Positions 2,830 to 40,677 of a stretch of DNA of 51,818 nt are shown in pieces. Positions within the stretch are counted from its first letter, which is position 1, and every line of letters starts with the position of its first letter. The DNA is from Acidobacteriota bacterium (GTDB lineage: Bacteria; Acidobacteriota; Terriglobia; Acidiferrales; UBA7541), in contig JAJXZD010000192.1 of NCBI GenBank assembly GCA_021780215.1, positions 1-51,818 of the forward strand, given 5' to 3'. The notes below the pieces were generated by a model. The model was not told where the DNA came from and searched no databases. It saw nothing but the letters and a program-made list of their open reading frames with translations. The position numbers were made by a program, and so were the translations under genes.

Positions 2830-2855
2830 CGTCAAGGCTCTCCCGCCAGATTCTC

Positions 2856-3286: not shown

Positions 3287-3330
3287 GCTGGATTTGAAAT
3301 TGGACCAACCTCAATACAAGGAGCTTTCCA

Positions 3331-4278
3331 TTGGGCGCGCGAATTTTGAACGGCAATACCATTCGAGACCAAATCTACGGCGAGTTGGCCGGCGAGATTG
3401 CCGCGCTGGCTTCCGCCGGAATCCGCCCCGGCCTTGCGGCCGTCCGCGTGGGCGATGATCCCGCCTCGAAGCTGTACGTCAACAGCAAAATCGCCTCGTG
3501 CGAGAAGCTGGGCCTCGCCAGTTTCCACATCACGCCGCCCGCCTCGACCACCACGGAGGAGCTTCTCGCCATCGTCGAGGGCCTCAACCGGCGCGACGAC
3601 GTGGACGGCATCCTCGTGCAGATGCCGCTGCCCAAGCAGATTGACTCCAAGAAGATTCTCGACGCGATCAATCCGGCAAAGGACGTGGACGGCTTTCATC
3701 CCGTGAACGTGGGCCATCTCGTGGCCGGGCGGCCCGCGCTGGTTGCCTGCACGCCCGCAGGCGTGATGGAAATTCTGCGCCGCAGCAGCATCCCCATCGA
3801 GGGGGCAAACGCCGTAGTCATCGGCCGGAGCGATATTGTGGGCAAGCCGATGGCGCTGCTGTTGCTGCACGCGAACGCGACGGTCACCATCTGCCATTCG
3901 AAGAGCAAGGACCTGCCCGGCATCGCCCGGCGCGCGGACATCATCGTCGCCGCCATCGGCAAGGCCGCGATGGTGACGCCCGATTTCGTTCGTCCGGGCG
4001 CGGCGGTGATTGACGTGGGCCAGATTGTTGTCCGCGATGCCGCCGAGGCTCAGCGCATCTTCGCCAAGTATCCCGCGAAGCTCGCTTCGTTCCGCGAGAA
4101 GGGCTCGATCCTGGCTGGCGACGTTCATCCCGAGGTAGCCGAGGTCGCCGGGGCGTACACGCCTGTGCCGGGCGGCGTCGGCCCTCTCACCATCGCCATG
4201 CTGATGAGCAACACCGTCAAGGCCGCGCGGATGCGGCGCGGCTCGCGCGCGCCGGCCGCGGCCAGCGGCCGCCCCTGA
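3331..4278 (+). CDS. folD: Bifunctional methylenetetrahydrofolate dehydrogenase/cyclohydrolase
   Basis: FolD oxidises 5,10-methylene-THF with NADP and hydrolyses the product to 10-formyl-THF, supplying one-carbon units for purines and fMet. The 315-residue protein has the catalytic Y49-x-x-x-K53 (LYVNSK), DVDGFHPVN, VIGRSDIVGKP of the nucleotide fold, and the family end motif PGGVGPLTIAMLM. It starts at TTG 3331 with an AAGGAG seven nucleotides upstream. The last 18 residues (after NTVKAA) are an Arg/Ala-rich tail longer than in most FolD proteins. The stop overlaps the coaE start in TGATG, so folD and coaE are coupled. Confidence 0.95.
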   Translation: MGARILNGNTIRDQIYGELAGEIAALASAGIRPGLAAVRVGDDPASKLYVNSKIASCEKLGLASFHITPPASTTTEELLAIVEGLNRRDDVDGILVQMPLPKQIDSKKILDAINPAKDVDGFHPVNVGHLVAGRPALVACTPAGVMEILRRSSIPIEGANAVVIGRSDIVGKPMALLLLHANATVTICHSKSKDLPGIARRADIIVAAIGKAAMVTPDFVRPGAAVIDVGQIVVRDAAEAQRIFAKYPAKLASFREKGSILAGDVHPEVAEVAGAYTPVPGGVGPLTIAMLMSNTVKAARMRRGSRAPAAASGRP

Positions 4279-4886
4279 TGCTGCGCGTCGGCCTGACTGG
4301 CGGGATCGCTTCCGGAAAATCTACGGTGGCGGCCTTGCTGCGCGACCGCGATTATCCGGTGATTGACGCCGATGTCCTGGCGCGCGAACTTCTTGAGCCC
4401 GGGCAGGACGCATACAACGAAGTGGTACGCGAATTTGGAGAAGGCATTCTCCGGCCCGATGGGACGGTGGACCGCGCACGGCTGGGTGCGATTGTTTTCT
4501 CCGACCGCATCAAGCGGGCGCGCCTCAACGAGATTCTTCATCCCCGCATTCGCCAGGTGGTGGCCGGCTGGTTTGCCGCGCTCGACCGTCCGGGAGGCCC
4601 GGACCTGGCCTTTGAAGATGCGGCGCTGATTCTGGAAGCCGGCGCGCGCCACAATCTGGACCGTGTGGTCGTTTGCTGGTGCCGCCCGGAGCAGCAACTC
4701 GAACGCCTGCGCGAGCGCGGTCTTTCGCTGGAGGATGCGCGCAGGCGCATCGCCGCGCAAATACCGATAGAGGAAAAGCGCCGCCTGGCCGATGAGACCA
4801 TTGACTGCTCCGGCTCTCTCGAGGAGACCGAGCGGCAGTTGGATCAGGTGCTCGCGAGACTGAAACGGCTGGCCGCCGCCGGGTAG
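4278..4886 (+). CDS. coaE: Dephospho-CoA kinase
   Basis: Catalyses the last step of coenzyme A synthesis, ATP-dependent phosphorylation of dephospho-CoA. The 202-residue protein has the expected length. Its P-loop is at residues 8-16 (GGIASGKST), followed by DADVLARELL, which carries the conserved Asp of the CoA-binding region, and a lid region rich in Arg (RLRERGLSLEDARRRI). The start ATG at 4278 overlaps the folD stop by one base, so the gene depends on translation through folD. The htrA-like gene begins 71 nt downstream on the same strand and may be co-transcribed. Confidence 0.93.
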   Translation: MLRVGLTGGIASGKSTVAALLRDRDYPVIDADVLARELLEPGQDAYNEVVREFGEGILRPDGTVDRARLGAIVFSDRIKRARLNEILHPRIRQVVAGWFAALDRPGGPDLAFEDAALILEAGARHNLDRVVVCWCRPEQQLERLRERGLSLEDARRRIAAQIPIEEKRRLADETIDCSGSLEETERQLDQVLARLKRLAAAG

Positions 4887-4957
4887 GTTGCCCCTCGCCG
4901 AGGCGGGCGAGCCTTGCGCCTCGCAGGATGCGCCGCACGGACGGAAAGGAAATGCCC

Positions 4958-6100
4958 ATGCCCGTCGCACCGGGTTCGAGACGCGCAATTCGCCTGCTGA
5001 CCATCGGCCTGATTATCGGCCTGGCGGCTTACTGGCTCGGCTCGCGCTACGGAAAGCCCAGCGCTCCCTCTGTCAGCGCATTGCAGGAGCAGACGCCCGC
5101 TTCCGAGGGAGCGCTCGATCCCACCGAGCAGGAAAACGTCCGCATCTACAAGCAGGCGTCTCCCGCCGTGGCCAACATCGTGACCCGCACGGTGCAATAC
5201 GACTTCTTTTTCAACCCTGTTCCGGTGGAAGGCGCGGGTTCCGGCTTTGTGATTGACGCCGATGGCCACATCCTGACCAATTACCATGTGGTGCAGGGCG
5301 CGCAGAGAATCGAGGTGACGCTCGGCGACCAGTCGCGCTACACCGCGAAATATCTCGGCGCGGACACCCGCAACGACATTGCTCTGATTCAAATTAATCC
5401 GCGCGGCCGCAAGCTCACGGTCCTCCCGCTGGGTGATTCCAGCCGGCTTCAGGTGGGCCAGCGCGTGCTGGCTATCGGCAATCCGTTCGGATTCGAAGGC
5501 ACGCTCACCACCGGCGTGGTTAGCTCGCTCGGCCGGACCGTGCAGACCGGTCAGAATACCTTTATTGACGAGGCCATCCAGACCGACGCGGCCATCAACC
5601 GGGGGAATTCCGGCGGGCCGCTGCTCGATTCGCACGGCGAAGTCATCGGGATCAACAGCGCTATCTTTTCTCCAAGCGGCACGGCCTCCGGGATTGGCTT
5701 CGCCATTCCCATCAATACCGCCCGCCGCGTCGCCGGGGAGCTGATTACGCAGGGCCGCGTCCGACGCGCCACGGTCGGGGTTGTCGGCCGTGCCATCTGG
5801 CCCGGCCTGGCGGACGCGCTCGGCCTCGACGTCCAGCAGGGAATCCTGATTGAGCAGGTGACGCCGGGCGGGCCGGCCGCGAAAGCCGGAATTCGAGGAG
5901 GGAACCGCGTGGTGCTCGCCGGATGGCAGGAGTTGCGCGTGGGCGGCGACGTCCTGATCGCCATCAACGGGAAAGCGGTGACCAATCAGGCGGACCTGAC
6001 TCTGCTCCTGAACCGCGCCCAGCCTGGCGATACCGTTACCCTGACGATCGTTCGCAACGGCAAGAAAATCAACGTTCCGGTAAAGCTCGGCGAGCAGTAA
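4958..6100 (+). CDS. htrA: HtrA/DegP-family serine protease with one PDZ domain
   Basis: Envelope quality-control protease of the trypsin fold. Numbering from the chosen start, a hydrophobic anchor lies at about residues 12-28, so the protein is probably tethered in the inner membrane and faces the periplasm. The catalytic triad is visible as H110 (TNYHVV), D140 (RNDIAL) and S218 (GNSGGPL). One PDZ domain follows (about residues 275-370), giving the DegS-like single-PDZ architecture. In-frame ATGs at 4928, 4952 and 4958 are possible. AAAGGA lies at normal spacing only for 4958, so that is used. Regulation is not evident from the sequence. Confidence 0.9.
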   Translation: MPVAPGSRRAIRLLTIGLIIGLAAYWLGSRYGKPSAPSVSALQEQTPASEGALDPTEQENVRIYKQASPAVANIVTRTVQYDFFFNPVPVEGAGSGFVIDADGHILTNYHVVQGAQRIEVTLGDQSRYTAKYLGADTRNDIALIQINPRGRKLTVLPLGDSSRLQVGQRVLAIGNPFGFEGTLTTGVVSSLGRTVQTGQNTFIDEAIQTDAAINRGNSGGPLLDSHGEVIGINSAIFSPSGTASGIGFAIPINTARRVAGELITQGRVRRATVGVVGRAIWPGLADALGLDVQQGILIEQVTPGGPAAKAGIRGGNRVVLAGWQELRVGGDVLIAINGKAVTNQADLTLLLNRAQPGDTVTLTIVRNGKKINVPVKLGEQ

Positions 6101-6955: not shown

Positions 6956-8089
6956 ATGGCCTCTTGGCCCCAATTCGTTCGCCGTGCGGGCGCCGGCCTT
7001 TGGCTGGCAGCGCTGCTTTGCGCAATGGCCCCAGCGCGCGGCGATACCCCCCCATCCCAGCCCGTCGGGCGCGTGGAAGGAAACGATATCTCCGTCGAGA
7101 GCGGCACGCCCGCCGGACAGGCCACGGCGCGCATCGCGCCGAGCATTTACGTGTCGAACGGCGGCGTCGTGGTGGTGCATTCGGGCCATGCCCGCATGAC
7201 GCTCTTTGCCGGCGGCAAGCTGGATATTTGCGGTCCGGCGAAATTCACAGTGCTGCTTTCGGGAAATTCCATTACCCTGGCGCTCAACTTCGGCCGCCTG
7301 CATGTGCAACTTCCCCCGCAGACCTCCCTGCGTATCTTCACGCCCACAATCGTCGCCACGCCGCTCGACATCAGCGGCGGCGCGCGCGATGTGACGGTCG
7401 GATTGAGCCTGGACGACTCGCTGTGCGTCCTCCCATCCAGCGGAGCCTTGCAATTGGAGCATCAATTCACGGGAGAGAAGCTGATCGTTCCGCAGGCCGG
7501 AGAATTTTTTCTGAGCGCGGGCCGCCTCGTCCCCACGGCGGGAGCGCCGGGAAGTTGCCAGTGCTCCGCGCCCTCGCCGCGTTCTCTGCCGCCGCCGGAG
7601 GAAATTCCGCAGTTCGCGCGAGCGGTTCCACCGCCTGTCAGCCCTGCTGCCGCTTCGCCGGCAGCGGCTCCCCACGCCGTTTACGCGCCCGCTCCGGGAA
7701 TGGTAGTCCGCATGCCGCTGCGGGTGAACGACGAGCATCCTCTGACGTCCTTACCAAGGCGTCAGGTGGAGGATGCCCCGCCCGATTTGCCTCCGGTGAG
7801 TGTGAAATTCGAACCGGCGCTCTTGTTCATGGCGTCCGCGCCTCCTCCGCCGCGCGGCGCGATGGAGGAAATTCTGCTGCTGGTCCGCGCGGCCCGCATC
7901 TCGCCGGACTGGGAATTCAACGGGCATGTGGACGCGCCGGATTTTGCCGCGGCCATGCGCCGCGCGCTGGGCGAGGGGCCTTCCCCGCAGGCGGAGGTGG
8001 GTTCATCCGCCTCCCAGCCTCCCGCGGAGCCGAAGAAGAAGAGGGGCGGTTTTTGGGCTGCCCTCAAGGATATTTTTGCCGGGAGTTAG
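6956..8089 (+). CDS. Secreted FecR-domain protein
   Basis: A 377-residue exported protein. It has a signal peptide (about residues 1-29, ending APARGD), then a FecR-like beta domain (about 40-165) with the pattern G-x-A-x-M-T-L-F-A-G-G and LNFGRLHVQLPPQTSLRIFTP. A Pro/Ala-rich linker follows, and the C-terminus is charged (PKKKRGG). FecR proteins in Proteobacteria relay a siderophore signal to an ECF sigma factor. Here no sigma factor or TonB receptor is adjacent and no membrane helix remains after signal cleavage, so a structural or ligand-binding role is equally possible. No ribosome-binding site precedes the ATG, while a -10-like TATAGT lies 13 nt upstream, suggesting a leaderless message. 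Confidence 0.75.
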   Translation: MASWPQFVRRAGAGLWLAALLCAMAPARGDTPPSQPVGRVEGNDISVESGTPAGQATARIAPSIYVSNGGVVVVHSGHARMTLFAGGKLDICGPAKFTVLLSGNSITLALNFGRLHVQLPPQTSLRIFTPTIVATPLDISGGARDVTVGLSLDDSLCVLPSSGALQLEHQFTGEKLIVPQAGEFFLSAGRLVPTAGAPGSCQCSAPSPRSLPPPEEIPQFARAVPPPVSPAAASPAAAPHAVYAPAPGMVVRMPLRVNDEHPLTSLPRRQVEDAPPDLPPVSVKFEPALLFMASAPPPPRGAMEEILLLVRAARISPDWEFNGHVDAPDFAAAMRRALGEGPSPQAEVGSSASQPPAEPKKKRGGFWAALKDIFAGS

Positions 8090-8119
8090 GACGGCCGTGC
8101 CGCCCGGCATTTGGCCGTC
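8090..8119. terminator. Hairpin between convergent genes
   Basis: GACGGCC (8090-8096) pairs perfectly with GGCCGTC (8113-8119) across a 16-nt loop, directly after the FecR-gene stop. A TTTT follows 8 nt later. It may stop transcription of the FecR gene. The U-tract is poor, so it is only a candidate. Confidence 0.3.
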
Positions 8120-8165
8120 TCGTGGGGTTTTGTGGCGAGGAGCGCCCCCTGGAAGGTTTCCGGGG

Positions 8166-9833
8166 CTACATCCCTTCGTAGTTTGGCCCGCCGCCGCCCT
8201 CCGGCGGAATCCAGTTGATGATCTGGTAGGGATCGGCGATATCGCACGTCTTGCAGTGGACGCAGTTGGCGGCGTTGATTTTCAATTTCGGCTCGCCCTT
8301 CTCGAGAACCATCTCGTAAACCGCCGCGGGGCAGAAGTACTGGCAGGGGTTGCCGAACTCGCGGACGCAGCGATCGCCGCAAATTTCCGGTTCGAGCACG
8401 ACCAGATGGCAGGGTTGGTCCTCCTCATGGCGCGTGCCGGAATGATACACGTCGGTCAAGCGGTCGAAGGTCAGCTTTCCGTCGCCCTTGAAGCGCGTGG
8501 ACTGGTCCACCAGCACGCGCTCCCGGTGCAGATTCCGGTAGGCGAGGTGCCCGGCTTTCGCTTCCATGGGGTCCACCAGGCCACGTCCCCCGGTGACGAA
8601 TTGCAGCCCCGCGTGGACAAGTCCTGCCCAAAGGCCGCCGTGAAATCCCTGGTGGAAATTTCGCACGGGCCAGAGCTCCTTCTTCAGCCAGCTCTCCTCG
8701 ATCTTGGCCTGATACGCGGAGAGCTTTTCCGCCGAAGTGTCTCCGGCGCAAAGCGCCTCATAGATTGTTTCCGCCGCGAGCATGCCGCTCTTGATCGCGG
8801 TGTGGATCCCCTTGAGCCGCTGGGAGTTCAGCAGGCTGGCGGAATCCCCGGCGATCAACGCCCCGCGCACCGAATTGCGCGGCATGGCGTACCACCCGCC
8901 GTAGGGCAGCGTCTTTGCACCGTAGCGCACCAGCTTCCCTCCCTCGAGGATCCGGCGGATGAAAGGGTGGGTCTTGAATTTCTGGAAGGCCTCGTGCGGG
9001 TCGAAGAGGGGGTCCTGGTATTCGAGCGCGACCACCAAGCCGAGCGAGATGCGGTTCTCGCGCATCCCGTAGACCCACCCCCCGCCGTAGAGGTGCGTAT
9101 CCAGCGGCCAGCCGAGCGTGTGCGCCACATATCCCGGTTCGACACGTCCCGGAGGAACTTCCCAGAGCTCCTTGATGCCGATTCCATAGACCTGAGGATT
9201 GCGCCCATCGAGCTTCATCCGGCGGACCAGACTCTTGGTGAGCGATCCGCGCGAGCCTTCCGCGAGGATGGTCACCTTGGCGCGCAGATCATAGCCCGGG
9301 GTGAAGTTCGACTTCGGCTGGCCGTTCTTGTCCAGCCCCTTGTCGCCGGTCACGACTCCGGCGACCCCTTCGCCCTCGTAGAGCAGCTCCTGGCCGGCAA
9401 ACTGGGTGAAGACGTTGATGCCTTTCGCCTCGACCTGCTCGCCCAGCCACTTCACCAGCTTGTTCAGCGACACGATGTAGTTGCCGTGGTTGCGCAACGG
9501 CGGGGGCGTGATGGGCAATTTGAACGATCCGCCCGCGGTGAGATAGTAGGCCGCATCGTCGGTGACCGGAGTGTCGAGCGGCGCGCTTTTCTCGAAATCG
9601 GGGAGCAATTCGCGCAGTGCCCGGGGATCCAGAATCGCCCCGGAAAGCTGATGCGCGCCCACCTCGCGCGCCTTTTCCAGCACGTAGATATTCTCCGCTG
9701 AGAGCGTCGGCGATTTCTTCGCCCGGGTATGCTCCTCGATCAGATTCGCCAGATGCAGCGCGCAGGACAATCCAGCTGGCCCCGCCCCGACAATCAACAC
9801 ATCCGCTTCAAGCTGTTCACGTTCGATTGGCAT
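8166..9833 (-). CDS. Electron-transfer flavoprotein:ubiquinone oxidoreductase
   Basis: Inner-membrane FAD/4Fe-4S protein that passes electrons from ETF (reduced by acyl-CoA dehydrogenases) to quinone. The 555-residue protein has the family length. The N-terminal FAD fold contains VGAGPAGLSCALHLA, a second FAD motif includes IAGDSASLLN, and the C-terminal ferredoxin-like region carries the four cluster cysteines in NCVHCKTCDIADP plus the upstream Cys-rich CGDRCVREFGNPC. The ATG at 9833 has an AAGGGAAG ribosome-binding site. No etfA or etfB is in the window, so the partner ETF is encoded elsewhere. It links fatty or aromatic acyl-CoA oxidation to respiration and so may serve the beta-oxidation enzyme at 45.6-47.7 kb. 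Confidence 0.93.
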   Translation of the reverse strand: MPIEREQLEADVLIVGAGPAGLSCALHLANLIEEHTRAKKSPTLSAENIYVLEKAREVGAHQLSGAILDPRALRELLPDFEKSAPLDTPVTDDAAYYLTAGGSFKLPITPPPLRNHGNYIVSLNKLVKWLGEQVEAKGINVFTQFAGQELLYEGEGVAGVVTGDKGLDKNGQPKSNFTPGYDLRAKVTILAEGSRGSLTKSLVRRMKLDGRNPQVYGIGIKELWEVPPGRVEPGYVAHTLGWPLDTHLYGGGWVYGMRENRISLGLVVALEYQDPLFDPHEAFQKFKTHPFIRRILEGGKLVRYGAKTLPYGGWYAMPRNSVRGALIAGDSASLLNSQRLKGIHTAIKSGMLAAETIYEALCAGDTSAEKLSAYQAKIEESWLKKELWPVRNFHQGFHGGLWAGLVHAGLQFVTGGRGLVDPMEAKAGHLAYRNLHRERVLVDQSTRFKGDGKLTFDRLTDVYHSGTRHEEDQPCHLVVLEPEICGDRCVREFGNPCQYFCPAAVYEMVLEKGEPKLKINAANCVHCKTCDIADPYQIINWIPPEGGGGPNYEGM

Positions 9834-19324: not shown

Positions 19325-19340
19325 TGTGATTTGCATCACT
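19325..19340 (+). promoter_or_regulatory. CRP/FNR-superfamily-type operator upstream of the reductase operon
   Basis: TGTGA (19325-19329), six bases, then TCACT (19336-19340) matches the CRP half-site pattern TGTGA-N6-TCACA at 9 of 10 fixed positions. It lies 125 nt before the first benzoyl-CoA reductase gene. A possible promoter, TTGCAT (19331-19336) and TATTTG (19354-19359) with 17-bp spacing, overlaps it. Benzoyl-CoA pathway operons in several anaerobes are controlled by CRP/FNR-family proteins (for example AcpR and AadR), so the match is meaningful, though the regulator is not in this window. Confidence 0.5.
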
Positions 19341-19464: not shown

Positions 19465-20631
19465 ATGACGCTGGCAACCATTGATTCAACGTTCGAACGC
19501 TGCACTGAGATTATTGGCGACTTGAACTTTCCGGAAGTGCGCCGTTGGAAGGACGAGCATCCCGGCGGCAAAGCGGTGGCGCATTTCCCGGTCTATGCGC
19601 CGGTCGAGCTGATTCACGCCTGCGGGATCTTGCCCGTCACGCTCAACGGCGCGGGCGACCGCCTCGATATCCAGCACGCCGACGCACGCTTCGGTTCCTT
19701 CATCTGCTCGATCGTCAAGACGACTCTGGAAATGGGCATGACCGATCACCTGGCGATCATTGACGGCATGCTCTTCAGCACCATCTGCGATTCGGCCCGG
19801 AATCTTTGCTACGTCCTCAAGCGCAACTACCCGCACATGTATCTGGACTTCATGCACCTTCCGCACAACCCGATGCCCGGATCGGGTGTGGTGCCGTTCT
19901 TGGCGGCGGAGTACAAGCGCATCCAGGACGAGCTGGAAAAGCTTTCCGGGAAAAAGGCCACGGACGAGGGTTTGCGCAAGTCCATCGCGCTCTACAACGA
20001 GAACCGCTCGCTCCTGCGCGATCTTTATGCGTTGCGCGCCGAGAAGCCGGAGGTCCTGCGCACCTCGGAGCTCTACGCGCTGATGCGCGCTGGCAACTTT
20101 ATGCCGGTCGAGACCCACAACCTCTGGCTGGTCGAGGCGCTGGGAGAATTGCGCGGGCGCACGGGGAAGCCGCGTGATTCGATCCGCGTCGTCGTTGAAG
20201 GCTCGTTCTGCGAGCAGCCGCCGCTCGATTTGATCCGGATCATCGAGGATGCAGGCTGCTACGTCGTGGATGATGATTTCATCGTGGGCCGCCGCTGGTT
20301 CACCGAGGATGTGCCCGAAACGGGAGACCCGCTCACGGCCCTGGCGGACAGCTACGTAAACCGCTCGGTGTATTCTTCGGTGCGGCATGATGCGCGCAAG
20401 CCTCGGCAGAAGGAGCTGGTGAAAAAGGTTCACGCGCGCAATGCCCGCGCGGTGATCATGCTGATCGCCAAATTCTGCGAGCCCGCGTTATTTGACTATG
20501 TCCTGTTCAAGCGGGAACTGGAGGCGCAGGGCATTCCGCATCTCCTGCTGGAATTCGAGGAAAAGGCATTCACGTTCGAGCGTTTGCGAACGGAAGTTGA
20601 GACTTTCGTTGAATCGCTTTTGTTTGAGTGA
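19465..20631 (+). CDS. bcrC: Benzoyl-CoA reductase subunit C (BcrC/BzdN type)
   Basis: One of two active-site subunits of ATP-dependent class I benzoyl-CoA reductase, of the 2-hydroxyacyl-CoA dehydratase superfamily. The 388-residue length equals known BcrC/BzdN proteins. The three cysteines expected to hold the 4Fe-4S cluster are visible at the superfamily positions: C53 (IHACGILPV), C108 (STICDSARN) and C338 (AKFCEP). The reaction is two-electron Birch-like reduction of benzoyl-CoA to cyclohexa-1,5-diene-1-carboxyl-CoA in the cytosol with reduced ferredoxin. The ribosome-binding site is weak. It is the first gene of the C-B-A-D operon. Other superfamily substrates are possible, but the paired activase genes downstream favour benzoyl-CoA reductase. 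Confidence 0.85.
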   Translation: MTLATIDSTFERCTEIIGDLNFPEVRRWKDEHPGGKAVAHFPVYAPVELIHACGILPVTLNGAGDRLDIQHADARFGSFICSIVKTTLEMGMTDHLAIIDGMLFSTICDSARNLCYVLKRNYPHMYLDFMHLPHNPMPGSGVVPFLAAEYKRIQDELEKLSGKKATDEGLRKSIALYNENRSLLRDLYALRAEKPEVLRTSELYALMRAGNFMPVETHNLWLVEALGELRGRTGKPRDSIRVVVEGSFCEQPPLDLIRIIEDAGCYVVDDDFIVGRRWFTEDVPETGDPLTALADSYVNRSVYSSVRHDARKPRQKELVKKVHARNARAVIMLIAKFCEPALFDYVLFKRELEAQGIPHLLLEFEEKAFTFERLRTEVETFVESLLFE

Positions 20632-20637
20632 GGACCC

Positions 20638-21993
20638 ATGACAGAGAAGCCGGCGGCAGGCAAGGGCGCTGCGGAAAAGCCCAAATCGGAATATCGCGGA
20701 CAGATCCACAAGCTCCAGAAGGATCTGATGACCCGGTGGTACCAGCGGCTGGAAGAGTCCGCTCTCACCGGCAACCCCAAATCCGTCTCTTTGTTGATTT
20801 CGGGGGCTTGTGTCGAGCTGCTCGAATCGTTTGATGTCGTGCCCATCTACCCGGAAGTCAACGCGCTGCAGCTGGCCATCCGGCACGAGTCACTCGAACC
20901 CATCCTCTATGCCGAGCAGATGGGCTACGCTTCGGATAACTGCGCCTACGTCAAGGCCGACGTCGGGGCGATGATGCTGCGAGTGACGCCGACCGGCACC
21001 AAAATGCCCACGCCGGCCCTGGCCCTGTGCAATTTCGTGGGCTGCAATGTCTACACCAAATGGTTCGAGCATCTCTCGGAATTCCAGCAGACGCCTCTTT
21101 ACATGCTGGATACGCCCTTCATGCGCACCGATTCGCCGCGCAAGGAGGACGTGGCCTATATCGTCCAGCAATTACACGAGATAGTGAAGATTCTCGAGCA
21201 GATTACCGGGAAGAAGTTTGATATCGACCGCTTCCGGCATGCCGTACAGTGCTCGCGCCAGGTTGAGGAAATGTGGTCGCGCATCAAGCGCCTGGCGCAG
21301 AACGTCCCGGCTCCCTTCGACGCCTACTTCGACGCAATCACTCTGATGGGCCCGCTTTACACTTACCGCGCCAACCCGAAGGGCGTGGAATTTTTCGAAG
21401 TGGCGCTTCGTGAGCTGCAGGAAAAGGTGGATCGCAAGGAGGGAGTCTACGACCAGGAGCGCTTCCGCGTGGTCATCGAAGGCCCGCCGCCCTACCCCTA
21501 TTTCCGCTCCTTCCGCGACATGCTTTCCTCGTGGAAGGCGGTGTCCGTGGCCTCCACGTATTCAACGGTGGGCGGCTTGTGGGAATTCGGCTTCCGCCAC
21601 GACGCGGAAAACCCGTTCGAGGCCGTGGCCCTGCACATGCTCGAGCAGAATCTGTGCAACCGCAACATGCTCCAGCGCTATGAGCAGATCCGCCGCTACG
21701 TCGAGGAATGGAAGGCTGACGGGCTGATCATCCACTTCGTCAAGAGTTGCCGCCTGTTTTCCGCGGGACAGGGCGATATGCGCGACTACTTCACCCGGAC
21801 GCTCGGTATTCCCACGCTCTATCTGGAATCGGACATTGAGGACCCGCGCTACTTCGGCGAGGCGCAGATCAAGAACCGCGTGGACGCGTACTTCGAGGCC
21901 CTGGGCCATGCCCAGGCCACGGGCGCAGCCGTGGCGCACGCCTCTTCCCAGGCGGCCGGGCCCTCGGCGCAAAACTTGCGGGTTATTGATTGA
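20638..21993 (+). CDS. bcrB: Benzoyl-CoA reductase subunit B (BcrB/BzdO type)
   Basis: Second active-site subunit of the class I benzoyl-CoA reductase. The 451-residue protein matches the BcrB/BzdO size. Cluster-type cysteines are visible at C58 (SGACVELL), C131 and C136 (LCNFVGCN) and C371 (VKSCRLFSAG). Family-like blocks include VIEGPPPYPYF and STVGGLWEFGFRH. It forms a heterodimer with the BcrC product, each subunit carrying one 4Fe-4S cluster near the substrate. It begins 6 nt after the previous stop, with GAGG just upstream of the ATG. The Ala/Ser/Gln-rich last 30 residues look like a flexible tail. Confidence 0.87.
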   Translation: MTEKPAAGKGAAEKPKSEYRGQIHKLQKDLMTRWYQRLEESALTGNPKSVSLLISGACVELLESFDVVPIYPEVNALQLAIRHESLEPILYAEQMGYASDNCAYVKADVGAMMLRVTPTGTKMPTPALALCNFVGCNVYTKWFEHLSEFQQTPLYMLDTPFMRTDSPRKEDVAYIVQQLHEIVKILEQITGKKFDIDRFRHAVQCSRQVEEMWSRIKRLAQNVPAPFDAYFDAITLMGPLYTYRANPKGVEFFEVALRELQEKVDRKEGVYDQERFRVVIEGPPPYPYFRSFRDMLSSWKAVSVASTYSTVGGLWEFGFRHDAENPFEAVALHMLEQNLCNRNMLQRYEQIRRYVEEWKADGLIIHFVKSCRLFSAGQGDMRDYFTRTLGIPTLYLESDIEDPRYFGEAQIKNRVDAYFEALGHAQATGAAVAHASSQAAGPSAQNLRVID

Positions 21994-22003
21994 GGAGAAG
22001 ACC

Positions 22004-22843
22004 ATGAGACTGGCTGCGGGTGTGGATGTTGGTTCGACGCAGACGAAGGCGATCATCATGTCCGACGACGGCGGAATCCAGATCGCCGGGCGCGCCCTGG
22101 TGGACACCGGGGCCAACGTGCAGAAGGCCGCCGACAACGGCTTCCGTCAGGCATGCCAGGTGGCCGGCGTGTCGCCGCAGGATGTGGGCTACGTCGTGGG
22201 CACCGGCTACGGCCGCTACAAGATCACCTTCGGCAACACCCAGATGACCGAGATCAGTTGCCACGCGCGCGGCGCGCACTTCCTGTATCCCAATACCCGC
22301 ACCGTGATTGACATGGGCGGGCAGGACGCCAAGGCCATATCCGTCGGGGCCAGCGGCGAAGTGCTCGACTTCGTGATGAACGACAAGTGCGCCGCCGGCA
22401 CCGGCCGTTTCCTTTCCAACGCCGCCGATGTGATGGGCGTGACCCTCGATGGAATCGGGCCCCTGTCGCAAAAGGGCAAAAATCCCGTGAAGATCACGAC
22501 GGTCTGCACCGTCTTCGTCGAATCCGACATCCTTTCCTATCTCTCGCTCGGCAAGAAGCCGGAGGACATTTTGAGCGGCGTCCATCTGGCGATTGCGAAG
22601 AGGACCATCTCTCTGGCGCGGCGCGTTCCCATCGAGCAGGCCATCACCATGACTGGCGGCGTATCCCGCAATATCGGTATGGTGCGCGCCCTCGAGGAGG
22701 TCCTGGGCACGGAATTGCAAGTCAGCCCGGAGGCGCACTACACGGGCGCCATCGGTGCGGCCATTTTCGCGCTGGAAAAGCTGGGGCAGTCGTTTGAATC
22801 CGACGTACGGAGGACGGCCAATGCAACGCGTAGCGGGGATTGA
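22004..22843 (+). CDS. bcrA: Benzoyl-CoA reductase ATPase subunit A (BzdP-like)
   Basis: ASKHA-fold ATPase that hydrolyses ATP to drive low-potential electrons into the BC heterodimer. The 279-residue protein has the phosphate-1 loop DVGSTQTKA (residues 8-16), DMGGQDAK of the phosphate-2/adenosine region, and the two cluster cysteines C129 (NDKCAAGTGRF) and C168 (TTVCTVFVESD). These sit at almost the same positions as C127 and C166 of the 2-hydroxyglutaryl-CoA dehydratase activase, with which the A/D dimer shares its bridging 4Fe-4S cluster. At 279 residues it is shorter than Thauera BcrA and closer to the Azoarcus BzdP size, as I recall those. GAGGAG precedes the ATG. Confidence 0.88.
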   Translation: MRLAAGVDVGSTQTKAIIMSDDGGIQIAGRALVDTGANVQKAADNGFRQACQVAGVSPQDVGYVVGTGYGRYKITFGNTQMTEISCHARGAHFLYPNTRTVIDMGGQDAKAISVGASGEVLDFVMNDKCAAGTGRFLSNAADVMGVTLDGIGPLSQKGKNPVKITTVCTVFVESDILSYLSLGKKPEDILSGVHLAIAKRTISLARRVPIEQAITMTGGVSRNIGMVRALEEVLGTELQVSPEAHYTGAIGAAIFALEKLGQSFESDVRRTANATRSGD

Positions 22844-23696
22844 TGTCGGCTCGGGCTTCACAAAGGCGGTGATTCTGGATTCGCCGCGCACAGGAGACAG
22901 CCGCCCGGTGGTGCTCGGCCGCGGGCGGGTGCGCACCGGAACGGACCTCGACGGCGCCGCGGCGCAGGCCCTGGATCTGGCCATCCAAGAGGCCGGCCTC
23001 CAGAGGGACGATGTCGGTTACGTCGCCACCACCGGATTCGGACGCAATACGGTAACCTTCCGCGATATTCAGATGACGGAAATCACCAGCGGAGCGCGCG
23101 GCGCCCATTTTCTGTTTCCCGATGCCAACGCCATTCTCGATATCGGCAGCCAGTCCACCCGCGCGGTCACCCTCGGGACGGACGGCAAGGTGGTTCACTT
23201 CAAGACCAACGACAAATGCGCCGCCGGATCGGGAAGCTTCATCGTCCGCGCGGTCAAGTACCTGCAGATCCCGATCGAGACCGTCGGCGACGTCGCGCTG
23301 CAGGCCACCAATCCGCAGGCCATCAGCAGCATCTGCGCGGTGTTGGCCGAAAGCGAAATCATCAATCACGTCAGCGCCGGGATTGGCATCGAGGACATCG
23401 TCGGCGGTATCTACCAGTCGCTCGCCGACCGCGCCTCGATGCTCCTCAAGCGTGCGGGCACGGAAATCAATGTGGTCCTGATCGGCGGCGTGGCCGTGCA
23501 GAAGGGCATGATCAAGGCTCTCGAAACCAAGCTTAAGGCTCCGGTGCGCGTGCCGCTTCACCCGGAATTTGTCTGCGCTCTGGGAGCCGCGCTGCTGGGA
23601 ATGAAGCGTCTGGCGGCGGGAGCCGGGAGCGTGCTTTCAGCGGGGTTGCCCGTCGGCTCGGAAGGCGCATCGAACAGGCCCTCGAGCCTGGCCTAG
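22821..23696 (+). CDS. bcrD: Benzoyl-CoA reductase ATPase subunit D (BzdQ-like)
   Basis: Second, distinct ASKHA ATPase that pairs with the preceding subunit. The 291-residue protein has DVGSGFTKA (residues 8-16), DIGSQSTRA, and the cluster cysteines C133 (NDKCAAGSGSF) and C172 (SSICAVLAESE). The ATG at 22821 lies 23 nt inside the previous gene and has GGAGGA upstream, so the two are translationally coupled. Two different activase genes next to the two catalytic genes is the hallmark of class I benzoyl-CoA reductase; 2-hydroxyacyl-CoA dehydratases use a single homodimeric activase. The last 25 residues (Gly/Ser/Ala-rich) are an extension. The operon ends here, convergent with the ppiD-like gene 70 nt away. 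Confidence 0.88.
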   Translation: MQRVAGIDVGSGFTKAVILDSPRTGDSRPVVLGRGRVRTGTDLDGAAAQALDLAIQEAGLQRDDVGYVATTGFGRNTVTFRDIQMTEITSGARGAHFLFPDANAILDIGSQSTRAVTLGTDGKVVHFKTNDKCAAGSGSFIVRAVKYLQIPIETVGDVALQATNPQAISSICAVLAESEIINHVSAGIGIEDIVGGIYQSLADRASMLLKRAGTEINVVLIGGVAVQKGMIKALETKLKAPVRVPLHPEFVCALGAALLGMKRLAAGAGSVLSAGLPVGSEGASNRPSSLA

Positions 23697-36291: not shown

Positions 36292-37737
36292 TTAGGCTGA
36301 AGTCTCCCAGTAGTAGCCTTCCTCGCCGTGTTGCGAGAGGTCCAGTCCCTGCGTTTCCTGCTCCTCGGACACCCGCAGGCCGATCACCGCGTCCACAATC
36401 TTCAAGATTACCAGCGTTCCCACAATCGCCAGCGTCCAGGCGATAGCCACGCCGATAGCCTGATTCCAGATCTGGTGCACGTTTCCTTCGAGGACGCCCG
36501 AGGCCAGCGTCTTCCCGCTGGCGTCCTTGAAGATGGGATTGACCGCGCTCGAGGCGAAGATTCCGGTCAGCAGCGCTCCGATGGTCCCGCCCGCCCCGTG
36601 AACGCCGAAGGCGTCCAGCGAATCATCGTAACCGAATTTCGATTTGACCGTCGTGACCATCCAGAAGCAGAACACGCCGGCAATCAAGCCGATTGCCAGC
36701 GCCGACATCGGGCTGACGAATCCCGAGGCCGGCGTGATTGCCACCAGCCCCGCCACGCATCCCGAAATGGCTCCGAGTGCGCTGGGCTTTCCATGGGTCA
36801 GCCATTCCGCCGCACTCCATCCCACCACCGCCGCGGCCGCCCCGAAATGCGTCGCCACAAATGCGCTGGTCGCCAGCCCATTCGAGGCAAGCGCGCTCCC
36901 CGCATTGAAACCGAACCACCCGACCCACAGCAGGCATGCGCCAACAAAGCTCAGCACCACGCTGTGCGGCGGCATGTTCTCCTTCGGATATCCCAGCCGC
37001 TTGCCAAGGTAAAGCGCGCAGATCAACGCCGAAACTCCCGAAGTGATGTGCACCACGGTCCCGCCTGCAAAATCGAGCGTGGGAAAGCGCCCCCCGAGCG
37101 AGGCGTTCAGCAACCCTCCCTTGCCCCACACCATGTGCGCCATCGGGTCATAGACCAGCAGCGACCACAACGTCAGAAATACGAGCATGGCGCTGAACTT
37201 CATCCGCTCCGCGAACGCGCCGGTGATCAGCGCCGGCGTGATAATCGCGAACATCAGTTGAAACATCATGTAGGTCTGCGCCGGAATGGTCGCCGCGTAC
37301 GCCGGATCGGGTTGCACCCCCACGCCGCGCAGGAACAGATTGTGCAGGCCGCCGAGAAAAGCGCTTCCCTGGCCGAACGCGAGGCTGTAACCCACCACGG
37401 CCCAGATCACCGTGATCACGGCCATCATGCCGAAGCTCTGCATCACTGTGCCGAGGACGTTTTTTTTGCGCACCAGCCCGCCATAGAACAGCGCCAGGCC
37501 CGGCCCGGTCATCAGCAGCACCAAGGCCGTACTCGTCAGCATCCAGGCGTTGTCTCCGGAGCTTTGAGCGGCCGCCGCTGCATGCTCGACGGCGCCGAGC
37601 CGCTCCACGCTGATTTCGGGAGCTACCATCGCAGCGGTGGTCCGCAGATAATGGCTTGGCGCCGCTTCGAGGATCATCGGCGCAAACGGCAGAAGCAACA
37701 GAAGGACAGCGATTCGCTGAAATAATTGCCTTCGCAT
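36292..37737 (-). CDS. amtB: Ammonium transporter
   Basis: Inner-membrane trimeric ammonium channel. The 481-residue protein has a cleavable signal-like start (MRRQLFQRIAVLLLLLPF), then about 11 membrane helices. Family motifs include MTGPGLALFYGGLVRKKN, the FAGGTVVHITSGVSAL segment with the twin-His region, and DAFGVHGAGGTIGALLTG with the second pore histidine. The ATG at 37737 has GGAGAAGG about 10 nt upstream. It is first in the amtB-glnB-glnD cluster, so PII and its modifying enzyme are made with their target. Confidence 0.94.
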   Translation of the reverse strand: MRRQLFQRIAVLLLLLPFAPMILEAAPSHYLRTTAAMVAPEISVERLGAVEHAAAAAQSSGDNAWMLTSTALVLLMTGPGLALFYGGLVRKKNVLGTVMQSFGMMAVITVIWAVVGYSLAFGQGSAFLGGLHNLFLRGVGVQPDPAYAATIPAQTYMMFQLMFAIITPALITGAFAERMKFSAMLVFLTLWSLLVYDPMAHMVWGKGGLLNASLGGRFPTLDFAGGTVVHITSGVSALICALYLGKRLGYPKENMPPHSVVLSFVGACLLWVGWFGFNAGSALASNGLATSAFVATHFGAAAAVVGWSAAEWLTHGKPSALGAISGCVAGLVAITPASGFVSPMSALAIGLIAGVFCFWMVTTVKSKFGYDDSLDAFGVHGAGGTIGALLTGIFASSAVNPIFKDASGKTLASGVLEGNVHQIWNQAIGVAIAWTLAIVGTLVILKIVDAVIGLRVSEEQETQGLDLSQHGEEGYYWETSA

Positions 37738-38035
37738 GCCGGTCAAACCTTCTCCTTCGCCAGGGCGGCCTCTCCGGTCCCCGTTCCGAGCGCCCGCACC
37801 AGCCCCCAACATTCCCTGTTTCGAATGATCCGGCTTGGCGGCTGCTTTCCTGTGCCTTGCCGGTTGCGGCGCATTATACATCAGCCGCTCGCGCGTTGGT
37901 GCACGAGGGGCATTTCTTGCGGGGCTTCCGAACGCCGGCGAATTTCCCGCTTTCCGGGATTATACTGTGCAAGTCCGCGCGGCCTGCCCTGGCCGCCGGA
38001 CGTCTCGCGGTATCCGAAGCGCGGAGGGCTTGCCC
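37738..38035. promoter_or_regulatory. Divergent promoter region between amtB and the Mo-hydroxylase genes
   Basis: A perfect TATAAT reads toward amtB (37878-37873, minus) and a TATACT reads toward the Mo hydroxylase (37961-37966, plus). Neither has a clear -35. I looked for a sigma-54 element (GG-N10-GC type) for amtB and did not find one. Confidence 0.4.
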
Positions 38036-38515
38036 ATGGCAAATATCACCCGACTGCGGGTGAACGGAACCCTGCATGCAGTTTCCGCCGACCCGGAAAC
38101 CAGCCTCCTCGCCATCCTGCGCGATTTCCTCGGCCTCACCGGAACGAAATATGGCTGCGGCGAAGGGCAGTGCGGCGCCTGCACCGTCCTGCTCAACGGG
38201 CGTCCGCGCCGCTCCTGCCTCACTCCCCTGGGTTCGGTCGCCTCGCAGGAGGTGATTACGATCGAGGGCCTCGAGCGCCACGGCCGGTTGCATCCCGTCC
38301 AGGAAGCCTTTCTCACCGAGGGTGCCTTGCAGTGCGGCTATTGCACCTCGGGCATGATTCTCGCTGGCGTGGCCCTGCTGCAATCGAACGCCAACCCTTC
38401 CGAGCAGGAAATCGCGCAGGCGATGGAGGGGAACATCTGCCGCTGCGGCACCTACCCGCGCATCATGGCGGCTATTCAGCACGCCGCGCGGCAAACCAAG
38501 GAGTCTCGGCGATGA
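38036..38515 (+). CDS. iorA: Two-[2Fe-2S] small subunit of a molybdenum hydroxylase (IorA type)
   Basis: Electron-transfer subunit of the xanthine oxidase family. The 159-residue protein has the plant-type cluster cysteines C41, C46, C49 and C61, then the second cluster cysteines C100, C103, C135 and C137 (CGYC and CRC motifs). It pairs with the large subunit that follows, overlapping by ATGA. The two-subunit layout without a separate FAD subunit matches isoquinoline 1-oxidoreductase and related enzymes that hydroxylate N-heterocycles or aldehydes; the substrate here is unknown. The ATG at 38036 has GGAGGG upstream; the longer open frame before it is not supported. Confidence 0.88.
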   Translation: MANITRLRVNGTLHAVSADPETSLLAILRDFLGLTGTKYGCGEGQCGACTVLLNGRPRRSCLTPLGSVASQEVITIEGLERHGRLHPVQEAFLTEGALQCGYCTSGMILAGVALLQSNANPSEQEIAQAMEGNICRCGTYPRIMAAIQHAARQTKESRR

Positions 38516-40677
38516 GCGGCCCCGCGGATTTTCCTCTGCCGATCGAGCCGGAACGCTATGAATTCCGCGCCGCGCCCGTGCATCACTTCGATCTGCGCCG
38601 CCGCGACTTCTTCAAATTTCTGGGCGCGGGCATGCTGGTCGTGTCCATTTGGAAGGAAGCGCCCGCGGCCCAGGAAGGTGTTCTCACGGGCCCGCCCTTC
38701 GCGGGTCCGCCGCTCCCGAAGGAAATCAGCGCCTGGCTGCATATCGGAGAACAGGGCGTCGCCACGGTTTATACCGGGAAGGTCGAAATCGGCCAGAACA
38801 TTCGTACCTCGCTCAGCCAGGCCGTGGCGGAGGAGTTGCACTATCCGCTCGACCAGATTCGCCTGGTCATGGGCGATACGTTGCTGACCCCCTACGACAT
38901 GGGCACCTTCGGCAGCCGCACCACGCCCACCATGAACCTGCAGCTTCGCCGGGTTTCCGCCGCCGCGCGTGGCATTTTGCTCCAGATGGCGGCGGCGCGT
39001 TGGAATGCCGACGCCGCACATCTCAGCGCGACCGCCGGACGCATCACCGATCCTGCAACGCGGCGTTCCATCTCCTACGCTGAATTGGTTGAGGGACAGC
39101 AGATCACGCAGACGATTCCCGCAGAGGACCCGCTGCTTTCTGCATCGCAGTGGACCGTCGAGGGACAGCCAATCCCGAAGGTAGACGGGCGGGACTTCGT
39201 CACCGGAAAGCATCGCTACCCGTCCGACCAGAGCCTGCCAGGAATGCTGCACGGAAAAATTTTGCGCCCGCCGTCGTTCGGCGCCACGCTCATTTCCGCG
39301 GAGGATCTTCCCGCCGATATGGCGAGCCACGTCACCTTTGTTCGCGACGGTGATTTCGTGGGCGTCGCCGCGGAGAGCGAGCAGCTCGCCTCCCAGGCGA
39401 TCGCCTCGATTCACGCGGCATGGAAAGAGCAGCCGCAGCCTTCGAGCGCCGAGCTCTTCGCCTATTTGAAGAACAACCCGGTCGAGTTGAAGGGGTTCGA
39501 GGGAGCCTCGCGCTATGAGATTGGTGCTGTGGACCGAGACATGGCCTCCGCGGACCATCGCCTGACGCAGACCTACACCGTTTCCTACATCGCGCATGCC
39601 CCGCTGGAGCCGCGCGCGGCCCTGGCGCAATGGACCGGCGATTCGCTGACCGTCTGGACGGGGACGCAGCGCCCCTTTGCCGTCCGCACGGAACTGGCGC
39701 AGGCGTTCCATATTCCCGACGGGAACGTCCGCGTTCTCATGCCGGATATGGGATCGGGGTATGGCGGGAAGCACACCGGCGAATGCGCGGTCGAAGCGGC
39801 ACGCCTGGCGCGCGCGGCGGGGCGGCCCGTAAAGCTGGTCTGGACCCGTGAGGAGGAGTTCACCTGGGCCTATTTCCGCCCGGCCGGGCTCATTGAGGTG
39901 AGCGCGGGCGTGCGCACCGGCGGAGCCATCGCCGCCTGGTCCTTCGCCAACTACAACTCCGGCGGCGCCGGCATCCGCACCTCCTACGACATCCCAAGCC
40001 AGCGCATCGTCTTCCAGCCCACGCGCTATCCCTTGCGCCAGGGCTCCTACCGCGCACTGGCCGCTACGGCGAACCATTTTGCGCGCGAATCGTTCATGGA
40101 CGAGCTGGCTCACGCCGCGAAGATGGATCCGCTCGCCTTTCGCCTGCAAAATCTGAAGGACGCTCGCCTCCGCGCCGTATTCCAGGCCGCCGCCGATAAA
40201 TTTGGATGGGGCGCTACCCCCGCGCCCGGCCACGGTTTCGGCATCGGCGGAGGATTTGAAAAGGGCGGCAACGTAGCCAGCTGTGCTGAAGTGGCCGTGG
40301 ATGCCGCGACGGGCGCGGTGCGCGTCGTCCGTGTAACGACTGCCTTTGAATGCGGCGCGGTGGTCAATCCCGATGGCCTGCGCAACCAGATCGAGGGAGC
40401 CATCCTTATGGGGCTGGGCGGAGCGCTTTTCGAAGCCATCCATTTCGAAAACGGCCGGATCCTCAACCCGCGCTTCTCGCAGTACCGCGTCTCGCGATTC
40501 AGCGACGTCCCGGCCATCGAGACGGTCATTCTCGATCGGCGCGACCTGCCATCCGCCGGCGCTGGCGAGACCCCGCTCGTGGGCCTGGCCCCAGCCATCG
40601 GCAACGCCATCTTCCAAACGACTGGAATTCGCCTGCGCTCCCTACCCATGGTTCCCAGCGGAATTCCCAAAACCTGA
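38512..40677 (+). CDS. iorB: Molybdopterin large subunit of the same hydroxylase (IorB type)
   Basis: Catalytic subunit with the molybdopterin cytosine dinucleotide cofactor. The 721-residue protein has a twin-arginine-like start (RRRDFFKFLGAGMLVVSIW), so it may be exported with the small subunit. The catalytic glutamate is E686 in GAGETPLVG, and GMGSGYGGKHTGECAVEAARLA-type Mo-binding sequence lies near the middle (the stretch PDMGSGYGGKH). It starts at the ATG overlapping the iorA stop. No cytochrome or maturation gene (such as a MobA or XdhC homologue) is adjacent. Confidence 0.88.
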   Translation: MSGPADFPLPIEPERYEFRAAPVHHFDLRRRDFFKFLGAGMLVVSIWKEAPAAQEGVLTGPPFAGPPLPKEISAWLHIGEQGVATVYTGKVEIGQNIRTSLSQAVAEELHYPLDQIRLVMGDTLLTPYDMGTFGSRTTPTMNLQLRRVSAAARGILLQMAAARWNADAAHLSATAGRITDPATRRSISYAELVEGQQITQTIPAEDPLLSASQWTVEGQPIPKVDGRDFVTGKHRYPSDQSLPGMLHGKILRPPSFGATLISAEDLPADMASHVTFVRDGDFVGVAAESEQLASQAIASIHAAWKEQPQPSSAELFAYLKNNPVELKGFEGASRYEIGAVDRDMASADHRLTQTYTVSYIAHAPLEPRAALAQWTGDSLTVWTGTQRPFAVRTELAQAFHIPDGNVRVLMPDMGSGYGGKHTGECAVEAARLARAAGRPVKLVWTREEEFTWAYFRPAGLIEVSAGVRTGGAIAAWSFANYNSGGAGIRTSYDIPSQRIVFQPTRYPLRQGSYRALAATANHFARESFMDELAHAAKMDPLAFRLQNLKDARLRAVFQAAADKFGWGATPAPGHGFGIGGGFEKGGNVASCAEVAVDAATGAVRVVRVTTAFECGAVVNPDGLRNQIEGAILMGLGGALFEAIHFENGRILNPRFSQYRVSRFSDVPAIETVILDRRDLPSAGAGETPLVGLAPAIGNAIFQTTGIRLRSLPMVPSGIPKT

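Follow-up and report, generated by a model that had tools for sequence, protein, structure and literature searches.

The window analysed here, a stretch of 51,818 nucleotides, contains an operon of four genes in the order C-B-A1-A2 (Table 1). A preliminary description had placed four genes at this locus and had read them as two catalytic-type subunits accompanied by two different activases. Open frames of 388, 451, 279 and 291 codons were indeed found at those positions, all four intact and tightly spaced, with the A1 and A2 frames overlapping by 23 bases. The Pfam family HGD-D was matched by C (262 bits) and B (219 bits), and BcrAD_BadFG by A1 (227 bits) and A2 (177 bits). The activases are unlike each other: of the reductase models, BcrA gave the top score for A1 (199 bits) and BcrD the top score for A2 (176 bits). 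In the comparison with solved structures A2 reached 205 bits with MbdQ and 176 bits with MbdP, and it carries DIGSQSTR where DxGGQDxK is expected. One operon thus holds two HGD-D subunits and two distinct ASKHA activases, the composition by which class I is recognised. Judged from sequence, the product is a class I aryl-CoA (benzoyl-CoA) reductase in the broad sense.

Table 1. Positions of the reductase genes and of the upstream palindrome in the window.
Feature	Positions	Strand	Basis
Subunit C (BcrC/BadD/MbdN-like, electron-relay)	19465..20631	+	388 aa; TIGR02263 337 bits, MbdN 309 bits, trees
Subunit B (BcrB/BadE/MbdO-like, catalytic)	20638..21993	+	451 aa; TIGR02260 306 bits, MbdO 220 bits, trees
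Activase A1 (BcrA/MbdQ-like ATPase)	22004..22843	+	279 aa; MbdQ 322 bits; GGQD and cluster cysteine motifs
Activase A2 (BcrD-like ATPase)	22821..23696	+	291 aa; BcrD model 176 bits
CRP/FNR-type palindrome TGTGATTTGCATCAC	19325..19339	.	Upstream of operon; putative regulator site

The palindrome is the single match to TGTGA-N6-TCAC in the window, where 0.23 were expected and at least one match occurred in 19 of 100 shuffles. The core GTGA-N6-TCAC was present 19–49 bases ahead of C in all eight Had-linked sister operons tested and ahead of C in none of five other relatives (L192–L196). No copy was found upstream of the host's own Had gene or of the benzoate-CoA-ligase-family gene on contig C234.

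Class I benzoyl-CoA reductases characterised to date are generally assigned to three types, Bcr/Bad, Bzd and Mbd. No NCBIfam equivalog cut-off was reached by any of the window proteins, and only the general activase domain model fitted. The proposal that the operon is of the Azoarcus Bzd type had to be abandoned. Although the same chemistry is expected of the Azoarcus/Aromatoleum BzdNOPQ enzyme, the scores were far below the curated cut-offs (BzdN 131 of 454, BzdO 124 of 449 and BzdQ 180 of 380 bits), and identity was 31% to BzdN and 27% to the partial BzdO. The Bcr/Bad type (TIGR02259, 02260, 02261 and 02263) has the same gene set, but all four of its cut-offs were likewise unreached (BcrA 199 of 578, BcrB 306 of 487, BcrC 337 of 421 and BcrD 176 of 313 bits) and a single clade with the window proteins was rejected (AU p 1e-5). 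Here the Bcr group was represented by Burkholderiales, with no named Thauera or Rhodopseudomonas sequences: of 250 genomes searched, 8 gave any match to TIGR02263, and the 6 that exceeded its cut-off were used. The 3-methylbenzoyl-CoA reductase MbdONPQ (PDB 9g87, 9gai) has the same four-subunit composition and was the best solved relative of all four window proteins, with A2 matching MbdQ first. Nevertheless, a joint window and Mbd clade was rejected (AU p 7e-6), and the two clades were separate in the B tree. Identities of C and B were 39% and 33% to MbdN and MbdO, and 39% and 37% to the Bcr-group locus L154. When plasmids were searched for named reference reductases, 22 records came back, all below 60% identity (among them Rhodococcus, Azoarcus KH32C and E. 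coli YjiM), and these were not used.

In the B tree of 119 rows, all 62 rows of the window clade fell together (support 98), as did the 18 rows of its acidobacterial subclade (support 100), and a tree of 112 rows, lacking three repeats and four Bcr-group acidobacterial rows, gave the same groups. A sister relation between the Mbd group and the window clade had support of 91 in the C tree of 126 rows and of 64 in that of 64 rows, but did not appear in the B trees, which were rooted on HadB. The window subunits lay inside the reductase clades, as the preliminary description had anticipated, with few outgroups in these trees (one named dehydratase and one double-cubane protein, both long-branched). 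We place the window reductase, from its sequence, in a separate clade that has no characterised member among the references used. Proteins of this clade occur in metagenome-assembled genomes labelled Acidobacteria, Rokubacteria, Chloroflexi, Planctomycetes, Elusimicrobia, Deltaproteobacteria and others.

The cluster ligands were also compared. According to PMC11971306, the ligands of the catalytic [4Fe-4S]-OH2 cluster of BzdO are Cys95, Cys128 and Cys380. C102 and C136 of the window B subunit align with the first two; the part of BzdO bearing Cys380 lies outside the alignment, and C371 was matched to it indirectly, through MbdO and HadB only. C102, C136, C371 and E73 are conserved across the six groups compared (C371 is a gap in one row). 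In BzdO the catalytic acid/base pair is Glu65 and His131. The pairing of E73 with BzdO Glu65 is indirect, because the available BzdO letters start at residue 80. Window B has Tyr139 at the position of BzdO His131, and all rows of the Mbd, C97 and Bcr groups have either Tyr or Phe there: Tyr in 20 of 21 Mbd-group rows, Phe in MbdO itself and Phe in the Bcr rows. The earlier claim that all cluster cysteines are in place therefore stands for the three catalytic cysteines of B, but not for C, which keeps only three (C81, C108 and C338) of the six double-cubane ligands of BzdN, and this too speaks against the Bzd type. Subunit C shares C249 and C265 with the Bcr and Mbd groups. C249, in the motif FCEQPP, occurs without exception in the Bcr, Mbd, C97 and window groups (108 grouped rows of 126 aligned), and in the alignment it is missing from BzdN, HadC and the double-cubane protein; C265 is missing from HadC.

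These residues bear on whether the operon could encode a HadBCI-like 2-hydroxyacyl-CoA dehydratase with a duplicated activase. The Pfam families are the same, among solved structures HadC and HadB come next in sequence similarity, and C81, C108 and C338 of window C also occur in HadBC, the (R)-2-hydroxyisocaproyl-CoA dehydratase. However, the HadBC dehydratase has one activase, whereas the window has two that differ. HadBC lacks C249 and C265, HadC falls outside the reductase clades (one named dehydratase, on a long branch), the curated dehydratase scores were 207 of 700 and 192 of 750 bits, and sister species link the operon to Had, Oah and Dch. We regard a dehydratase as very improbable. Model scores, cluster residues and trees agree with the preliminary view of a class I aryl-CoA reductase, as opposed to a 2-hydroxyacyl-CoA dehydratase or a double-cubane protein.

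The host had been supposed to be an acidobacterium, and this was borne out: G219, a genome assigned to the host's phylum, matches a contig titled Blastocatellia without a difference over 13,425 bases. The statement that the later pathway genes are not linked to the operon holds within the window, but elsewhere in the genome contig C77 carries Had (446 bits, cut-off 339), Oah (556 bits, cut-off 464) and a hydratase side by side. A search of this genome for an aromatic-CoA pathway, as had been proposed, was positive for Oah, Had and two benzoate-CoA-ligase-family proteins (611 and 554 bits, cut-off 375), but the C77 hydratase, the best in the genome for the Dch model, remained below its cut-off (177 of 292.5 bits). 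Of 14 control genomes, none matched the Oah model, seven gave weak matches to the Dch model and one was over the cut-off of the ligase model, which is a subfamily model. On contig C234 a benzoate-CoA-ligase-family gene adjoins 2-oxoacid oxidoreductase genes. A second class I set is encoded on contigs C97/C50, beside a 3-hydroxyacyl-CoA dehydrogenase and the start of an acyl-CoA dehydrogenase; Had and Oah may therefore serve the C97/C50 enzyme rather than that of the window.

The companion genes differ among the relatives. Sister acidobacteria have the reductase and Had-Oah-Dch combined in a single operon. In L040 (curated models) and in L070, L071, L072 and L077 (BLAST), Had, Oah and Dch come after C-B-A1-A2, and in G257 the window type, the only C homologue at E 1e-30, is in one operon with Had-Oah-Dch. 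In the nearest kin of the window (L075, L078, L068 and L038) the operon is joined to an amidohydrolase and a dehydrogenase, not to Had-Oah; none of these four genomes gave an Oah match at E 1e-40, and no amidohydrolase was found in the host genome at E 1e-40. Among 101 genomes with a reductase homologue, one had both amidohydrolase and Oah, 20 amidohydrolase only, 38 Oah only and 42 neither. In Fisher tests, which ignore the relatedness of the genomes, this exclusion gave p values of 0.0013–0.004 (41 acidobacterial genomes), 2.5e-4 (101 pooled), 0.15 (49 named-contig genomes alone) and 0.49 (11 relatives). For these counts G312, which repeats G219, was left out, and further repeats may remain; partial, sub-cut-off matches in G017, G239, G343 and G601 were counted as Oah, a contig-edge match in G621 was counted as amidohydrolase, and matches of 35–56% identity in G341, G326, G303, G073 and G121 were excluded.

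The counts suggest that a second ring-opening enzyme exists beside Oah, the window's own genome having Oah, and the closest relatives seem to use this different, candidate enzyme. With some Mbd- and Bcr-group reductases, too, Had-Oah is replaced by a protein of amidohydrolase fold, in most cases accompanied by a BadH-like dehydrogenase. The protein is without the usual metal-binding HxH motif, and its model (10 sequences, mean pLDDT 81) matched an uncharacterised Bordetella protein, aryl-acid decarboxylases and the LigJ hydratase alike, so that its reaction does not follow from the fold by itself; the protein may instead be a decarboxylase. Tentatively, and as the less probable side of the question, the window would represent a further uncharacterised class I clade with an exchangeable ring-opening module, in which the amidohydrolase is a candidate hydrolase opening the dearomatised ring.

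We hold with good confidence that the four proteins form an ATP-dependent aryl-CoA reductase of class I, most likely reducing benzoyl-CoA to cyclohexa-1,5-diene-1-carbonyl-CoA. The genes, their homology, the cluster residues, the separate clade, the companion genes of the host and the linkage in sister species were observed directly, whereas we infer the activity, its substrate, which of the two reductase sets supplies Had-Oah and, from homology with BzdNO and the Mbd enzyme, the route of the electrons. The A1A2 activase dimer would take electrons from reduced ferredoxin, perhaps reduced by the 2-oxoacid oxidoreductase of C234. ATP hydrolysis would drive the electrons to the clusters of subunit C and then to the water-bearing [4Fe-4S] cluster of B, where the ring would be reduced. 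Hydration of the diene would be followed by oxidation through Had and ring opening through Oah, the enzymes encoded with the hydratase on C77.

This reading has to be weighed against a reductase acting mainly on substituted benzoyl-CoA or another cyclic conjugated acyl-CoA, with benzoyl-CoA left to the C97/C50 set. Such a division of labour is suggested by the presence of two paralogous sets in one genome, by the lower-pathway-type genes adjoining the C97 set and by the different companion genes in the window's nearest kin; it is opposed by G257, where the window type, the one C homologue at E 1e-30, accompanies Had-Oah-Dch, and we consider it rather unlikely. That the operon arrived by horizontal transfer and persists as a relic with no function in the host is still harder to sustain, with only a slight chance of being correct. 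B is 56–58% identical or lacking in the same genus (match in 5 of 18 other species), while it is 66–71% identical, above the same-genus values, in G265, G257, G219 and G074 of other families, and the companion genes are unlinked to the operon. Against decay stand the intact frames and cluster residues, the tight gene spacing, a GC content of 59–65% with no shift, the regulator-like palindrome common to the sister operons and the near-complete companion set of the host genome.

A strong C homologue (233 bits, a cut set in the present analysis) was found in 41 of 297 sampled Acidobacteriota genomes. Oah was over its cut-off in 19 of these 41 genomes, in 3 of the 12 whose homologue was weak or partial and in none of the 27 without one. 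A 2019 paper (PMC6472368) already described bcr genes of class I from Aminicenantes, a group assigned to Acidobacteriota in PMC12869995. Given these 41 genomes and that report, the preliminary suggestion that the operon extends anaerobic aromatic degradation to the phylum was overstated. In a literature search that covered subscription papers thinly, no title was found on the window clade or on Terriglobia-type acidobacterial reductase genes. Through this operon further acidobacteria, beyond the deep-sea Aminicenantes, are tied to oxygen-free ring reduction. The operon represents another large branch of class I reductases, at which the curated models have a gap. If the exchange of ring-opening modules is true, it would bear on the roles of ThnN in naphthalene degraders without oah and of BamU in Geobacter, and the pattern of Oah versus amidohydrolase makes an unsettled point of how naphthalene and benzoate are degraded anaerobically directly testable on enzymes.

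The four open reading frames of the preliminary description were all present with the positions and lengths it gave. The genes for the electron-relay subunit (C), the catalytic subunit (B) and the two activases (A1 and A2) are tightly spaced, with a 23-base overlap between A1 and A2, and Pfam and NCBIfam assigned two of the products to HGD-D and the other two to BadF/BcrA-type activases. The best solved matches were the subunits of 3-methylbenzoyl-CoA reductase (309 bits for C, 220 for B, 322 for A1 and 205 for A2), and for C and B the dehydratase HadBC and BzdNO ranked below it. None of the NCBIfam equivalog cut-offs was reached for BcrC (337 of 421 bits), BcrB (306 of 487), BcrA (199 of 578) or BcrD (176 of 313), nor for the Bzd models, which scored even lower; the sole NCBIfam model passed by the operon proteins was the general activase domain. 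C is 39% identical to MbdN, 39% to a Burkholderiales protein of the Bcr group (L154) and 31% to BzdN. The assignment to class I was upheld: the operon encodes a real class I aryl-CoA reductase, and the predicted enzyme is most likely a benzoyl-CoA reductase.

A tree of C was built from 126 rows, comprising the window, homologue loci from several searches and four solved references. The window protein fell within a 64-row clade (SH-aLRT 92), separate from a 22-row clade (99) holding six Burkholderiales proteins above the BcrC cut-off and from a 27-row clade (100) containing MbdN and the second reductase copy of the host genome (contig C97). The Bzd, Had and double-cubane references lay outside on long branches, whose joins may be false according to a warning of the program. 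The same groups were recovered in a 119-row tree of B, with the window clade at 62 of 62 rows (98), its acidobacterial subclade at 18 of 18 (100), the Mbd plus C97 group at 26 of 26 (98) and the Bcr group at 21 of 21 (96), in agreement with an earlier 112-row version. The AU tests used groups defined once the first tree was available, and a 64-row C tree picked from the 126 rows. Placement of the window in one clade with the Bcr group (p 1e-5) or with the Mbd group (p 7e-6) was rejected; in this tree the window clade had a support of 95 and a sister relation of window and Mbd only 64.

Cys95, Cys128 and Cys380 of BzdO bind the catalytic cluster, Glu65 and His131 act as acid/base residues, and in BzdN the double-cubane cluster is bound by Cys36, 73, 100, 263, 293 and 327 (PMC11971306). 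In window B, Cys102 and Cys136 align with BzdO Cys95 and Cys128, Cys371 aligns with cysteines of MbdO and HadB, and Glu73 is invariant. The His131 position is occupied by Tyr139, a tyrosine shared by all 61 window-clade rows and by 20 of the 21 Mbd rows; the five C97-group and 19 Bcr rows have phenylalanine there. In window C, three of the six cluster ligands of BzdN have counterparts in Cys81, Cys108 and Cys338. Because the other three are missing in all four aligned groups (window, Mbd, C97 and Bcr), these enzymes either do without the Bzd cluster or use different residues to bind it; among the 108 grouped C rows (18 of the 126 aligned belong to no group), Cys249, in the motif FCEQPP, is present in all and Cys265 in 102. 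The ATPase motif of A2 (DIGSQSTR) deviates from DxGGQDxK, versus DMGGQDAK in A1; among 88 loci with an activase caught by the search patterns, 35 had an altered plus a normal motif, four had two normal ones and 49 one normal motif only.

Five sister operons (L040, L070, L071, L072 and L077) carry C, B, A1, A2 and the lower-pathway genes Had (dehydrogenase), Oah (ring hydrolase) and Dch (dienoyl-CoA hydratase) in one row, and in three more (L076, L079, L080) Had is the last gene visible ahead of the contig end. These operons are the strongest evidence that the window-type reductase serves a benzoyl-CoA pathway. The host genome (2.97 Mb, 92.8% complete) holds Had (446 of 339 bits), Oah (556 of 464; matched in none of 14 control genomes) and an enoyl-CoA hydratase side by side on contig C77, the last under the Dch cut-off (177 of 292.5 bits) of a model that weakly matches seven of the 14 controls. 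Contig C234 encodes a benzoate-CoA-ligase-family protein (611 of 375 bits, by a subfamily model also above cut-off in one of 14 controls), followed by the alpha (652 of 483) and beta (263 of 262 bits) subunits of a 2-oxoacid oxidoreductase, an enzyme type that serves as electron donor in Thauera. A second ligase-family protein (554 bits) lies on contig C121. Contigs C97 and C50, which share a 177-base end overlap at 99.4% identity, each carry a part of the second class I reductase set; this set adjoins a 3-hydroxyacyl-CoA dehydrogenase gene and the beginning of one for an acyl-CoA dehydrogenase. The window also encodes a 983-aa molybdopterin-binding protein (MoCoBD_1 and MoCoBD_2) and a FadB-like fusion of enoyl-CoA hydratase and 3-hydroxyacyl-CoA dehydrogenase adjoining an Mrp/NUBPL-type iron-sulfur carrier.

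A possible alternative partner for ring opening was found in the four rows that both trees place nearest to the window (L075, L078, L068, L038), where an Amidohydro_2 protein and an SDR (in L038 best matched by BadH, 263 of 431 bits) immediately precede C. The amidohydrolase lacks the HxH metal motif usual in such enzymes (AIDFMYYV is found there) and the usual late Asp (WGTNGL). Among the studied loci, twenty more rows, partly repeats, match the L038 protein at 70-86% identity, and the family adjoins class I reductases of three clades, including Mbd-group (L047, L146, L132) and Bcr-group (L203, L204) ones. In one genome search, all 14 genomes with matches of at least 465 bits had the gene beside reductase genes; in four Rokubacteria genomes it lies off the reductase contigs examined. 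Across 101 genomes with a reductase homologue, the amidohydrolase and Oah were nearly exclusive: both occurred in one (G315), the amidohydrolase only in 20, Oah only in 38 and neither in 42 (Fisher p 2.5e-4, uncorrected for relatedness). The corresponding counts were 0/8/21/12 in 41 acidobacteria (p 0.0013; 0/8/19/14, p 0.004, without two partial Oah matches), 1/9/14/25 in 49 named-contig genomes (p 0.15) and 0/3/3/5 in 11 relatives (p 0.49). The host genome falls with the Oah group. An absence of oah has been described for the naphthalene degraders N47 and NaphS2, with ThnN, of the amidohydrolase superfamily, as the best yet untested ring-opening candidate and its homologue BamU as having no known function (PMC12016498); bamU is listed as an amidohydrolase in a table of gene-expression changes on benzoate, with a value of 10.4 (PMC1924859). 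The amidohydrolase of the reductase loci may be a homologue of ThnN and BamU.

The window contains one copy of the CRP/FNR-type palindrome TGTGATTTGCATCAC versus 0.23 expected, and 19 of 100 shuffles contained at least one. GTGA-N6-TCAC occurs 19-49 bases ahead of C in all eight Had-linked sister operons tested, before the amidohydrolase in three of eight operons tested (L038, L075, L205) and at the start of its open frame in L083. In the host it lies between divergent genes of C97 and before the second ligase on C121; none was found before Had, the PaaY-like gene, the C234 ligase or the oxidoreductase. It was likewise absent before C in relatives L192 to L196 and in L038, L041, L068, L073, L074, L075, L078, L082, L083, L086 and L088. 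The background was 21 copies in 325 kb, with the named sites counted in. L039 encodes a CRP/FNR-type regulator two genes away from A2. We infer that the operon is under a putative CRP/FNR-type regulator, and the palindrome common to the window and the sister operons possibly marks an anaerobic or catabolic regulon.

Locations of features in the window and in compared loci (~290 aa is the approximate length for the amidohydrolase family, which has further loci)
Feature	Location	Remark
CRP/FNR-type palindrome	window 19325-19339	139 bases before C
A2 activase	window 22821-23696	
Molybdopterin-binding protein	window 37726-40677	
FadB-like fusion and adjoining carrier	window 45592-48922	
Second reductase set, first part	C97 (L036) 1-5220	
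Second reductase set, second part	C50 (L037) 7673-8688	
Amidohydrolase	L038:7784-8692	~290 aa
Amidohydrolase	L068:8297-9208	~290 aa
Amidohydrolase	L075:5296-6180	~290 aa
Amidohydrolase	L078:2917-3894	~290 aa
Amidohydrolase	L047:6086-6940	~290 aa
Amidohydrolase	L203:12148-13176	~290 aa
DMSO-reductase-family neighbours	L041:6981-10834	genome G074

Class I bcr genes have been reported in MAGs of Aminicenantes (PMC6472368), a class of the Acidobacteriota (PMC12869995), and an Azoarcus-type pathway in Chloroflexi (PMC5736913); our literature search found no report on the reductase clade of the window. A C homologue at E 1e-30 was found in 53 of 297 genomes of the phylum, 41 of them strong (233 bits or more) and 12 weak or partial. 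In genome G074 the reductase operon adjoins type II DMSO-reductase-family subunits and a chaperone; the heme b subunit has an ethylbenzene-dehydrogenase domain, and a hydroxylase for an upstream hydrocarbon is possible. A B homologue is present in five of 18 other species of the host's genus. Because these are less similar to the window protein (56-58% identity) than those from three other families (66-71% in G265, G257, G219 and G074), simple inheritance of the operon in the host is improbable.
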